From positions 25,902,923 to 25,966,922 of the forward strand of contig CP099847.1 of assembly GCA_030062745.1 (NCBI GenBank): 64,000 nt of DNA. Reading direction: 5' to 3'. The DNA comes from Capitulum mitella (Eukaryota; Arthropoda; Thecostraca; Pollicipedomorpha; Pollicipedidae). The notes below the pieces were generated by a model, which saw only the letters and a program-made list of their open reading frames with translations, was not told where the DNA came from and did not search any database. The position numbers and the translations under genes are program-made. Position 1 is the first letter of the stretch. Each line of letters opens with the position of its first letter. Of this stretch, positions 1,952 to 63,522 are shown in pieces.

Positions 1952-2040
1952 ATAAAGACGTTCCAGGACGATGACTATCCCGAGGTCACGTACGGTGACC
2001 TCGCGGACGGCCCGTTCCTGCAGGACGTCATGCTGCAGAT
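1952..2040 (+). CDS. Girdin: girdin exon w1: first part of the Hook-type domain
   Basis: This 89-nt exon runs from the acceptor TTGCAG (ending 1951) to the donor GTGAGT at 2041. It starts in phase 0 and leaves two bases (AT) that join the A opening the next exon to make Ile. The peptide opens with IKTF and ends DGPFLQDVMLQ plus the split Ile. It aligns with the girdin segment VKTF ... DGVFLNQVMLQI about 20-50 residues from the N-terminus. In the Hook family this region forms the first helices of a calponin-homology-like fold, the N-terminal docking domain. The following intron is 15.4 kb. The start of the protein, normally ending ...VTW just before this exon, is not visible. The call rests on the good match, both consensus splice sites and phase agreement with w2. 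Confidence 0.9.
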
Positions 2041-17407: not shown

Positions 17408-17445
17408 CCGTGACCTGACCTCTTGCCCGTGACCTGACCTCCGAC
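17408..17445 (+). repeat. 19-bp duplication over the likely branch-point region of exon w2
   Basis: CCGTGACCTGACCT occurs at 17408 and again at 17427, 16-53 bases before the exon w2 acceptor AG. Each copy carries CTGAC, a good animal branch-point core. The duplication therefore offers two equivalent branch-point candidates for the same acceptor. Their function is inferred from position. Confidence 0.55.
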
Positions 17446-17460
17446 CCCGTCTGTCGGCAG

Positions 17461-17566
17461 ACACCCGGACGTGCCGCATCGGGGCATGACGCGCAAGCCG
17501 GGAGACGCCAGCGCGCGCATCAGGAACCTGGCCATCGTGCTCAAGAACATCAAGCACTTCTACGAG
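17461..17566 (+). CDS. Girdin: girdin exon w2: Hook-type domain, middle helices
   Basis: This 106-nt exon starts after CGGCAG and ends GAG before GTGGGT. Its first base completes the Ile codon split from w1, and it ends in phase 0. The peptide begins HPDVPHRGM and ends NLAIVLKNIKHFYE, matching girdin INPK...ASLRIHNLSILVRQIKFYYQE. The pattern of Arg-Ile-x-Asn-Leu followed by a helix ending Phe-Tyr is shared by girdins and HOOKs and forms part of the calponin-homology-like core. The segment between HPD and the Ala-Ser-Arg-Ile motif differs in sequence from vertebrates, as is usual for that loop. It lies between the 15.4-kb and 29.05-kb introns, so it depends on accurate long-range splicing. Confidence 0.95.
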
Positions 17567-43852: not shown

Positions 43853-46329
43853 GCCGGCGGCACGCGCTCCGCGGCGTCGGCGCGCGGGTGGCCGGCCGTC
43901 TGGGGTCGGCCGCGTGATCAGTCTGCGTGCGTCCCGTGCGCTGCGGCCGCGCCACCACGGCCGGCCGGCACGCACGGCGCCGGTCCCGCGGCCGCGCCGG
44001 CGGGCGCCGCCGGACCTGCTCAGATAAGAGCAGCGATTTGTTTGGCGGACCCGGTGGCGTCGGTCGGGCGGCTGCCCGCCAGGCGCGCCTCCCGGGCCGC
44101 ATTAGCGACAAGGCCTGCCGGCGGCACGTCCGCGGCGTCGCCTGAGGAAAACAGCCTCCCGAGTGGAGTGGTCGAGGCGTGTGGTCGTCGGCGCGATGTC
44201 CCGGTCGGCCTTCTCCCGGAGCAGGCGGATCTCGGCTGTCCGAACGAGACACGTGACGTCCCTGTAGGAGTGCAGCTTTATCCCCGCACATTAGGCCCCT
44301 CTCGCCCGTGTCACGTGGTGCAACGCCGGGACGGACAATGCGACCCGGCGTCACAATAAACCGTCACGGGTGTCCGGGACGCCCGGCGACGGCTGATGCA
44401 CGCTTGACTTAAAAACGCCCATTAAAAAGCGGGGCCCGCCGGCGCGCGGATTGTCGGCGATCGGCCGGCTGTGACGTTACGTTACGTCACGGCCGGGCCG
44501 GCTCTCGCGCGGCGCTCTCCCTCGACGAGCCGAATTACACAACGCTCCAGCGTCCTCAAATCGCGGCTTTCCGCCATCTATCTTGGCGCGGGCTATCAGG
44601 ACGGAATCTGCCCCGGAAGCGGCCGGAATTAGGCCCCTGTTTTCGGCGAAACGACCGAAACGGAAACCGCACGGCGGCGCGTCGTGACCGGCGCCGTGGG
44701 ACCGGCGCGATGGCCGCCCATAGCCCCCGCCCGGCGGCCCCGGCCGGCCGGGCGGGACTCGAGCGGTCCCCGCGGCGGCCGCCGGACAGCGCCGGCCGAG
44801 AGGGCCGCCTCCTCCGCGGCCGGCCGGGCCTCCGCCGCCGCCGTCGGCCGCGCGGCGACGGGCCCGTTCCCTGGCGGCGCGCGGCCGCCGGCGGGCGCGT
44901 ATCGGCGCCGACGCCGGCCAACGGTCGCCCGATTACGGCCGCGCAGATGCACGCTCGGCCGGCGGCCGGCCGTCACGGCGCCGTCACCGTGACGGCCGGG
45001 GCCGTGACGGCGGCGGCGGCGGTCGCGGCGCGCCGGCCGGGATGGCGCGCCCCGGTGGCGCCTAGCGGTCTGCGGCCGCGCCCATGGGTGGCTCCCACGT
45101 TTTGTCCTGGCACGCCATTGCCGGCCGATTTGATTACGGATTAAATGGAAGTAATGGTCTCGGCTCGGGCGGCCGTCCTAATGGTGGTGGGAGAATCGAT
45201 GTTGATCGGTGTCGGAATGGGTTTTCCGCGTCCAAGACGGCTCCGGCGCCGGTCAGTATCTACGCCCAGCTACTAGCGCACAATTAACGCCTTTTGCATG
45301 CATATTTCATGATGAATATTCATGTAAGCGGCCTATTCGTTGGTGGAAGTCGTTCGACACGGGGCGTGAACTCGAAGCCAACGGTCCCTTTCCTCATGCT
45401 TGTTGTTTCGAGCCATACACGCCAGGTCTCACTTTGATTCAGAACGGGCTCGGTCATTTACCTCTGGTTGCATGTCGTGATTCAGTCGTACACTTGTGTT
45501 CGTGTTTCGCATTCGTGCTTTGGTCGCGTTAGAAAAGGATAGTATCAGATATTGATCTATTCCTCATTGCGGTCGGGAAACTGTAAGGAGGAAATCTGTC
45601 AAAATGCAGACATGTTTTGTCAAAAATATCCGTGGAAATCGGATTTAAACATCGACGGAACGTGCATGATAAATGAAGCTAGACCGAATCTACAAAGGCA
45701 ACATCTTTCTTTAAATTCGTCGAACATGCTTGCAGCTCAGTGGTCGTGTTCTAATCCAGTAGCAATGGTTGATTTTCCTTGGCCCGAAAATAAAGGTTGT
45801 CTCCGCCATTTTCCAAAGGCTTGTTCTTTTTGTTAAAGCCTCTTTTACCAAACTACGACCAACATTGACACCCCATGCATAAATTATGCGATTTGCTACT
45901 CACGACAGCCATCACTGTCTGAGCTTCGCGGTAAGCTTCGATCAGTACAGATGACGCTATCTCAGACGCCATTCAGCAGCGTTGCTCGCCATTGACCGTT
46001 AGTTCTGGTCGAGCCTGAGCAAATTTCCTCAGATCGGATGATCCATAAGCCGGCCGGGTGCCTTATCCGAGCCGGCAGACTGGGGCCGCCTGTTGAACAA
46101 GTGCCGCCTCCATCACGCCCGTGACACCCCAGTTACGGCGGGTGCTCTCCGAGCAGTGCGCCATGATCGGCGTCGGACGCCGGGCAGTCGGCGGGGCGTC
46201 GGCGGCCCGCTTCACATGATAACGGTCATCACGGTCATCAGGCCGGGTCCCGGCAGCGGTCAGACGCGGCGCGTGTGTGGTACAGTGCCGGCGTCCTCTG
46301 GGATCCACCAGCGGCGCCCGGCCGACCCA

Positions 46330-46616
46330 ACCGCGTGGCCACGGCCCTTTGGTGATCCCCAACCGTGTTTCGTCAGGTGGTGCTGGGTCAGACGGTGTTG
46401 ACCCTATGACGACCTCCGTCCGTCAGGTGGCCTGACAGGGGTCGTGCCCTGCGTCAGACGGCCGTGACCCTTTGGTGATCCCCAGCCGTGTTTCCTCAGG
46501 TGGTGCTGGGTCAGACGGTGGTGACCCTATGACGTCCTCCGTCCGTGTTCCCGCCAGGGGTGGTGCTGGGTCAGACGGTGGCGACCCTCTGACGACCTCC
46601 GTCCGTGTTTCCTCAG
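46330..46616 (+). repeat. about 60-bp tandem array carrying copies of the exon w3 acceptor and first codons
   Basis: The sequence around the true acceptor (CAG at 46616 and GTGGTGCTGGGTCAG after it) is repeated upstream. Copy A joins at 46376/46377, copy B at 46499/46500 and copy C at 46557/46558 (with two extra G); a worn copy lies near 46437. Copy B matches the first 26 bases of the exon exactly, and A and C differ at one base each. Spacing is about 123, 60 and 57 bp, so the unit is about 60 bp. Each unit keeps its own pyrimidine stretch and CAG. Use of A or B would reach TGA after ten codons; use of C would shift the frame and reach TGA inside the start of w3. Confidence 0.85.
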
Positions 46617-46823
46617 GTGGTGCTGGGTCAGACGGTGGTGACGCGGCTGCCGGACGTGGTTCGTCTGGCCTCGGATGTCGAGGGGGCCACGGACGAGATG
46701 CGTCGCCTGCTGCTGCTGGTGCTGGGCTGCGCCGTCCAGTGCAGCTGCAAGCAGAAGGTGGTGGACAACATCAAGCTGATGGACTACCAGACGCAGCACG
46801 CCATTGTCGAGTGCATCCAGCAG
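46617..46823 (+). CDS. Girdin: girdin exon w3: Hook-type domain signature
   Basis: This 207-nt exon (69 codons, phase 0 to 0) lies between CCTCAG and GTCAGT. The peptide begins VVLGQTVVTRLPDV and carries the family hallmark LLLLVLGCAVQC, then MDYQTQHAIVECIQQ. Vertebrate girdin reads LPNV ... LLLLLLGCAVQC ... IQGLDFDTKAAVAAHIQEV at the same place, so this is the most diagnostic exon. The Gly-Cys-Ala-Val-x-Cys helix is the conserved core of the Hook domain; in HOOK proteins the following helices contact the dynein light intermediate chain, and the same role here is inference. Its first 26 bases also exist as tandem copies in the upstream intron. The 46616 acceptor was chosen because only it gives an open frame. 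Exon skipping would keep frame but remove the domain core. Confidence 0.97.
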
Positions 46824-47772
46824 GTCAGTGTAGAGGAGCTGTGGCTGTTCAGTAAGAAGGTCACGACCTCCGTGGGTCCGTGGTATTATCGCCTAATGGT
46901 GCGAGGACAATGCTGATGCGTAGGCGTCGCAATGGGATGCTGGACATCATTTCGTATGCTAGCGTTGTTTCGCAAAAATACCACGTCGTACGTAAGATCA
47001 GGGATGGTTACGAAATTCCGATCTGATATGATCCGATACGAAAATCGAACTGATCTTCAAAAGTCTGCGCTGGGTTTTGACTAGTTGAAGAAGTGTCATA
47101 TTCTGCCACATGTGTGTTGCACGTAATGTGTCAGGCTTGCAGCAAGGACCCCTGTTTTTCGGGTATCGTATGTCCCACCATGTAAAAATGCTTGCCTGAT
47201 AAATACCTCGCCTATACGTAAACGAGCAAGTTTTTTTTAATACATGGCGTCTACCAACATTTTTCATGCTCTGTGTGCAACAGCAAGACCATTGCAAAAT
47301 TTCACGCGAGGTCTTGTTTATTTTGCGCGAGCTACATTCCTTCCTTTTTCCTTCCCCTTACCTCCGACCACCTGGAATTTTTCCTGTCGAAGTTTTCTCC
47401 CCACTGAGCGCCACCCACCTCCCCTGCTTTCCCAGCTCACGGCGCCGAAGCCGCCGTAATCCTCGGAGGCTGGCGAATCGCAGCTCGTATTGAGCAGGGG
47501 GATCTGGGGCTGTCCCGGCCGGCACTGTATCTCCCGGACGTGTCCGCGAGGACGGTGCCCGCGGCCAGGACGGGACGGCTACCGGCCCGCCCTTCTGGCA
47601 AACTCCGGGACATTGCCTCCATCAAGGAAAGATCTGCCGCACTGGCGCCGTGCGGATAAATTGGGTCCTTGAAGGACAAAGCCGAGACGGCGAACCGGTC
47701 CACCGTCTCCAAAACAGCGATTGCAAAACGGAGGTGTCCTGGCCCGCATGGGTGTAGCCCCGTTTCAGAAAT

Positions 47773-54042: not shown

Positions 54043-54177
54043 GTCACGGACAACCCGGAGACGGTGTGGACGCAGGAGTGGAGCGAGCAGCAGGCAGAGT
54101 CGGACGATGACCCCAACGTCCAGCTGCTGGTGGGGCACGTGCGCCGACTGGTGCGCGAGAGAGACGACCTGAGCATG
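54043..54177 (+). CDS. Girdin: girdin exon w4: end of the Hook-type domain and exit helix
   Basis: This 135-nt exon (45 codons, phase 0 to 0) lies between CCGGCAG and GTGAGA. The peptide starts VTDNPETVWTQEW and ends GHVRRLVRERDDLSM. Girdin of vertebrates has VTHNQENVFDLQW and LKRLIDERDEHSE in the same order, with an acidic segment between; here that segment is ESDDDPNVQ. This part distinguishes girdin from HOOK proteins, which lack the Asn-x-Glu-x-Val-x-x-x-x-Trp motif. The closing helix leads out of the globular domain towards the coiled coil. The exon is flanked by 7.2-kb and 4.9-kb introns and, like w3, could be skipped without a frameshift. Confidence 0.96.
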
Positions 54178-58815: not shown

Positions 58816-59062
58816 GTGTCCACCTCTGTCTCGGCAGCGTCTGAGGAGCTGATACTGCAGGAGTATCTCCGCCCCCTTTGAGTGTCCACCGCCGTCCCCT
58901 CTGTGTGTCCACCTCTGTCCCCTCCGAGTGTCCACCTCTGTCCCTTCTGAGTGTCCACCTCTGTCCCCTCTGAGTGACCTCTTCTGTCCCGGCACCGTCT
59001 GATGGAGATGTTTCTGAAGGAACACCTCTGTCCCCTCTGAGTGTTCTCCTCTGTCCCGGCAG
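58816..59062 (+). repeat. exon w5-head copies embedded in a 23-bp GTGTCCACCTCTGTCCC array
   Basis: A 23-bp pyrimidine-rich unit (GAGTGTCCACCTCTGTCCCC plus 3) is repeated several times up to the true acceptor. Two blocks also carry the start of exon w5. Copy 1 follows an intact CGGCAG at 58832-58837 and matches about 27 of the first 33 exon bases with one deletion. Copy 2 starts at 58996, matches 27 of 33 without indels, but its acceptor reads GGCAC instead of GGCAG. Copy 2 would encode RLMEMFLKEHL against RLVELVLQEHL in the exon, then stops. Copy 1 stops after four codons in the w5 frame. Neither has a donor, so both look like decayed duplicates. Confidence 0.8.
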
Positions 59063-59235
59063 CGTCTGGTGGAGCTGGTGCTGCAGGAGCACCTCTCGGA
59101 GAAGGGCGGCCGGCCGCCGGACAGCCCCGGCCAGACGCCCCGCTCCCGCCAAGGCTCCGGACAGACCGGCAGCCACCACCTGCAGGTCGAGCTGGCCGAC
59201 TGCAAGGCCCGGCTGCGCAAGGTCAAACAAGAGCT
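59063..59235 (+). CDS. Girdin: girdin exon w5: linker and start of the coiled coil
   Basis: This 173-nt exon runs from CCGGCAG to GTAAGT, starts in phase 0 and leaves CT to be completed by the A of w6 (Leu). Residues 1-11 (RLVELVLQEHL) continue the exit helix. Residues 13-37 form a Gly/Pro/Ser/Gln-rich linker with the family SPG motif. From residue 39, HLQVELADCKARLRKVKQE opens the long coiled coil and matches girdin HLSVELADAKAKIRRLRQE. In the family this coiled coil drives parallel dimerisation. The exon's first 33 bases have two decayed copies within the upstream 230 bp of intron. Confidence 0.96.
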
Positions 59236-63440: not shown

Positions 63441-63522
63441 AGAGGAGAAGACAGAGCAGCTGCTGGAGCTGCGGGAGGAGCTGGAGACCAATAAGCAGAC
63501 CCTCAGCAAGCTGCGAGCCGAG
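63441..63522 (+). CDS. Girdin: girdin exon w6: coiled coil
   Basis: This 82-nt exon lies between TTTCCAG and GTGGGT. Its first A completes the split Leu codon, and the exon ends in phase 0 with GAG. The peptide EEKTEQLLELREELETNKQ continues with TLSKLRAE. Vertebrate girdin has EEKTEQLLDCKQELEQ at the same point, so the match is close for the first eight residues and keeps the heptad pattern (Leu at core positions) after that. It is the last exon in the window; the rest of the coiled coil and the C-terminal signalling region must lie beyond 64000. Confidence 0.95.

Follow-up and report, generated by a model that had tools for sequence, protein, structure and literature searches.

The repeated exon start at the w3 acceptor

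The stretch of the Capitulum mitella genome considered here (64,000 nucleotides of contig CP099847.1, hereafter the window) carries on its + strand part of a HOOK-domain gene, of which six exons, w1 to w6, were placed (Table 1), w1 not necessarily being the first exon of the gene and w6 not necessarily the last. The intron between w2 and w3 extends over 29,050 nt (17567-46616), and its 3′ end is occupied by an array of units, each made up of the 3′ splice-site region together with the first coding bases of w3, the last unit being the real exon start. A second exon of the same gene, w5, likewise has its acceptor and some 34 of its bases copied upstream (region 58838-59096), with an expanded 23-base repeat (58873-58990) lying between the two copies.

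Tandem Repeats Finder reported the w3 array both as 46357-46642 (period 117, 2.4 copies, score 391) and as 46363-46642 (period 57, score 312), whereas the best score among 200 dinucleotide-shuffled versions of 46001-47000 was 45. The array is a minisatellite with a repeat of 57-60 bp, its head-to-tail units of tens of bases standing far above chance. Alignment resolves it into five units of 56-65 bases, four of them clear and one (u2) degenerate, and the repeated unit spans the intron-exon boundary, the last unit, taken as the reference, drawing 31 bases from the intron and 26 from the exon. The 26 exon bases recur at 46500 (26/26), 46377 (25/26), and 46560 (25/26); the copies at 46377 and 46500 follow directly upon TCAG, and the copy at 46560 is preceded by CCAG and two extra G, which places the corresponding exon start at 46558. 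The acceptor AG is retained in u1, u3, and u4, and behind each clear decoy the intron resumes after 26 exon-like bases. An initial annotation of this DNA had described at least three upstream copies of the CAG acceptor with 26 coding bases, one of them exact, and the real site as the last member of the series, a description with which both Tandem Repeats Finder and the base counts agree. The degenerate unit u2, the higher-order spacing, the branch-point difference, and the w5 case described below were not part of it.

The intron part of the units exists in two versions, one shared by u1 and u3 and another by u2, u4, and u5, which together with a higher-order spacing of 117-123 bp suggests the duplication of a two-unit block. 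When 46330-46642 was compared with the window by blastn (E up to 0.01), matches were found only inside 46330-46642, so the array unit is not a dispersed repeat within these 64 kb.

Table 1. Exons of the HOOK-domain gene, units of the w3 array, and copies of the w5 exon start (window coordinates)
Feature	Position	Strand	Remarks
Exon w1	1952-2040	+	
Exon w2	17461-17566	+	donor GAG/GTGGGT
u1	46348-46403	+	exon copy 25/26; decoy acceptor, exon start 46377
u2, degenerate	46404-46468	+	CAG acceptor-like sites, exon starts 46427 and 46439
u3	46469-46525	+	exon copy 26/26; decoy exon start 46500
u4	46526-46585	+	exon copy 25/26; decoy exon start 46558, two extra G shift the frame
u5, last unit	46586-46642	+	putative functional 3′ splice site and first 26 nt of w3
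CTGAC	46589-46593	+	likely branch point for the w3 acceptor; A lies 25 nt upstream of w3 with no intervening AG
Exon w3	46617-46823	+	HOOK domain; by itself matches HOOK_N at E 1.9e-12
Exon w4	54043-54177	+	
w5 exon-start copy	58838-58870	+	CAG acceptor intact; copy lacks one base; 4 codons, then a stop
w5 exon-start copy	58996-59029	+	AC replaces the acceptor AG
Exon w5	59063-59235	+	second exon with its own acceptor and start copied upstream
Exon w6	63441-63522	+	

The probable source of the copies

When joined, w1-w6 form a single open frame of 264 codons, the product of which matches Pfam HOOK_N (PF19047) over residues 8-134 (E 6e-19, 68.7 bits, cutoff 23.5), the domain spanning exons w1-w3, and matches the solved Hook3 over residues 2-135 of the query (E 1.5e-12). 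Both alignments run through the junction of w2 and w3 with no inserted copy (query ..HFYE/VVLGQTVVTRLPDV against Hook3 ..YNHEILGQQINDFTLPDV), one single-residue gap falling shortly after the junction. It follows that w3 has long been coding from its first codons onward, and that a normal domain results when 46617 serves as the acceptor. With an exon start of ancestral coding origin, w3 is most likely the source of the array copies. The solved structures with HOOK matches were Hook3 and Hook1, which do not settle the choice between girdin/CCDC88 and Hook; the girdin label given to the gene, which relates to the start of its coiled coil, is presumptive.

Splice-site signals of the real acceptor and its decoys

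The upstream sites had been regarded in the initial annotation as near-identical acceptors. They are not equivalent to the real one, which alone among the sites scored has a CTGAC free of an intervening AG and also has the highest pyrimidine count. A CTGAC was counted as a candidate branch point if its A lay 15-45 bases upstream of the exon start and no AG intervened, and the decoys scored were 46377, 46427, 46500, and 46558 (46439 was not included). Such a motif precedes four of the six true acceptors (w1-w4), none of the four decoys, and 1.8% of the 1,106 other + strand CAGs in the window (binomial P 1.6e-6). Under the looser pattern YTNAY, the corresponding figures are 4/6 true acceptors, 1/4 decoys, and 10.4% of the background CAGs. 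Within 46300-46617, CTGAC occurs only at 46432 and 46589, the former lying too close to 46439 to count. The stretch holding the motif reads CCTCTGACG in the last unit, CTATGACG in u2 and u4, and CTTTGGTGAT in u1 and u3, so that u4 departs from the real site at a single base of CTGAC. Pyrimidines make up 14 of 17 positions at the real site, compared with 12 at 46377, 11 at 46427, and 13 at both 46500 and 46558, and decoy 46500 has an extra AG 12 bases upstream of its own.

Concealment of the decoys by RNA structure was also considered: over three folded spans, the mean unpaired probability was 0.38-0.49 for the real site and 0.28-0.45 for the four decoys, which is not decisive, as the real site is not the more accessible in every span. 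As a separate observation, the intron ends before w1 (1902-1951) and w2 (17411-17460) hold three and two CTGAC motifs of branch-point type, respectively, in short local repeats.

Proposed origin of the array

The reading that we favour, with a probability of about 0.8, is that slippage gave rise to a minisatellite crossing the intron-exon boundary, that the last acceptor wins on the strength of the best signals, and that the upstream copies are drifting decoys. A segment running from the branch-point region through the pyrimidine tract and the AG to base 26 of the exon would have been duplicated in tandem. Later rounds, in which a two-unit block was probably copied, would have brought the array to five units, the last of which stayed joined to the intact exon, leaving the protein unharmed if the last acceptor wins. 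That it does so is most likely, because no other scored site of the array has CTGAC without an intervening AG, none has as good a pyrimidine tract, and none stands before a complete exon and donor; the decoys, presumably unused, would then be left to drift. The abundance of tandem arrays in the window also speaks in favour of this reading, as does the like arrangement at w5, where one of the two copies has AC instead of AG.

Several observations weigh against this account. The true acceptors of w5 and w6 have no CTGAC, so the motif is dispensable in this gene; being absent from w5 and its copies alike, it cannot tell the real w5 site from the copy at 58838. The w3 decoy at 46427 possesses a weaker match to YTNAY (TTGAC), the pyrimidine differences between the real site and the decoys are small, and in one folded span decoy 46500 is slightly more open than the real site (0.39 versus 0.38). 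Furthermore, the two parts of the unit have not changed alike: in u1, u3, and u4, only 2 of 78 exon-derived sites are altered compared with 19 of 91 intron-derived sites (gaps uncounted, u2 excluded for its poor alignment), with a Fisher P of 0.0003 that is too small, since u1 and u3 share changes and the counts are not independent. Plain neutral drift does not predict that the exon-derived halves should be the better kept. Gene conversion had been suggested in the initial annotation; conversion with the selected exon is a possible cause in keeping with these counts, and a single replacement of a variable block would account for the well-kept exon parts equally well.

The same annotation had also read the likeness of the copies as a sign of recent expansion, to which their divergence lends no support. 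Substitutions and small indels set the copies apart, and their gapped matches with one another show 83, 86, 94, and 95% identity over 141, 181, 48, and 40 nt, respectively; the ungapped identities of 62 and 64% partly reflect register shifts, and the comparison of the last copy extends past the array. The array is left undated.

Alternative readings

Leaky use of the decoys could generate stop-bearing mRNA that is destroyed and thereby set the level of the protein, a form of unproductive splicing that we consider unlikely. Decoys 46377 and 46500, situated 240 and 117 nt upstream of the real exon start, are in frame and run into TGA after ten codons each, and decoy 46558, 59 nt upstream, is frame-shifted and reaches TGA after 27 codons, just as the frames and stops of these three had been described initially. 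Nonsense-mediated decay is usually invited by a stop that lies well upstream of the following exon junction, and use of 46377, 46427, 46500, or 46558 would place the stop 417, 391, 294, or 185 nt before that junction, respectively, although use of 46439 would place it 65 nt beyond. The AGs kept in u1, u3, and u4 and the acceptable pyrimidine tracts of the decoys would further suit such a role. The stops themselves are no sign of design, however, because intronic sequence usually yields an early stop, and CTGAC is missing from all four decoys scored.

Much more doubtful is the bolder proposition that a module of branch point, acceptor, and exon start has been repeatedly amplified at the 3′ splice sites of this genome, and that those copies starting with GT form a self-correcting ladder, whether tolerated or useful. 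Self-correcting stepwise (recursive) splicing at w3, in which an upstream copy would be spliced first and a second step would then lead to the real site without leaving a scar, is held to be more improbable still. As w3 begins with GT, each CAG/GTGG copy would be acceptor and donor at once, and there are four CAG/GT sites (exon starts 46377, 46427, 46500, and 46617). The pairing of CAG/GTGGTG with U1, at -8.2 kcal/mol, is stronger than that of three of the six real donors (one of them by merely 0.1), duplex energy being a crude measure of donor strength. The 29 kb intron is also of a suitable kind, given that the ratchet points of Drosophila are described as tandem acceptor-donor pairs found predominantly in long introns (PMC8605326). 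Nevertheless, the donor regenerated after the first step, GAG/GTGGTG, pairs at only -6.8 kcal/mol (-5.9 for the 46427 copy) and with a bulge, which is weaker than any of the six real donors (range -7.0 to -11.1) but just 0.2 short of the weakest. In addition, the real w2-w3 junction would regenerate an identical donor, the w5 copies start with CG rather than GT, and the w3 copies sit at the extreme end of the intron.

Arrays are prone to error in assemblies, but multiplication of a single real copy in the assembly, the least probable of the explanations weighed, should have left near-exact copies, whereas these differ by substitutions and small indels and, at 83-95% identity, are not exact assembly echoes.

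Relation to known systems

The w3 array amounts to a natural competition assay, in which related 3′ splice sites lie within 240 bases of one another, similar in tract and exon start and differing in branch point and in the length of exon behind, so that the deciding feature could be read from RNA reads. Reed and Maniatis, in work from 1986, reportedly used laboratory transcripts with duplicated splice sites, in which similar 3′ splice sites stood in tandem with exon sequence of differing length behind them; the array at w3, by comparison, is natural, diverged, and made of five units. A literature search returned no minisatellite that amplifies an acceptor and exon start alike, although subscription journals were mostly outside its scope, making this weak evidence of absence.

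The closest published case met is the RdRp gene of potato, in which Ma, Lan, and Niu (2016, PMC4974935) described a tandem duplication across an intron-exon boundary. The two copies differ by ten nucleotides, and the duplication created an intron whose splicing was confirmed with RNA reads. As at w3, the duplicated segment holds an intron end and an exon start. The potato gene differs in having two copies rather than five units and a new intron whose donor lies in formerly exonic sequence, whereas at w3 the protein match is consistent with splicing to the last acceptor and with no additional piece of exon. The present array is a further example of duplication across such a boundary, here extended to five units, and w5 of the same gene supplies another. 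In Drosophila, intron gain through tandem duplication of AG/GY proto-splice sites was reported by Lehmann et al. (2010, PMC2891723); these duplications resemble the w3 array in their tandem AG/GT copies and differ in lying inside the reading frame and creating an intron, the w3 copies being inside an existing one. The ratchet points of Joseph et al. (2021, PMC8605326) share with the w3 copies a GT directly after the acceptor and a long intron. Unlike the ratchet points, the w3 copies have a weak donor half (GTGGTG) and are clustered at the intron end.

Arrays at other exon edges

With two acceptors of a single gene affected, one may ask whether duplications across exon boundaries are concentrated at 3′ splice sites, in which case such hot spots would supply new introns and alternative acceptors. 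Tandem arrays are plentiful across the window, with 71 Tandem Repeats Finder rows over 1-64000 covering 7.6% of the bases. Arrays cross the edge at two of the six acceptors (w3 and w5) and at none of the six donors. With the many arrays in the window taken into account, and depending on how the background is defined, the probability of at least two of six acceptors being crossed is 0.008, 0.012, or 0.038, and over all 12 edges the values become 0.03, 0.05, or 0.13. The enrichment at acceptors is modest, post hoc, and suggestive only, and no hot spot is claimed. At the other edges, no array crosses the acceptors of w1, w2, w4, and w6 or any of the six donors. The best local copy scores were 17, 22, 26, and 16 for these four acceptors and at most 18 for all six donors, with a background median of 20 (the scan took the end of w4 as 54176, one base short of 54177), and the score of 70 obtained at w5 was reached by 37 of the 1,565 background positions sampled.
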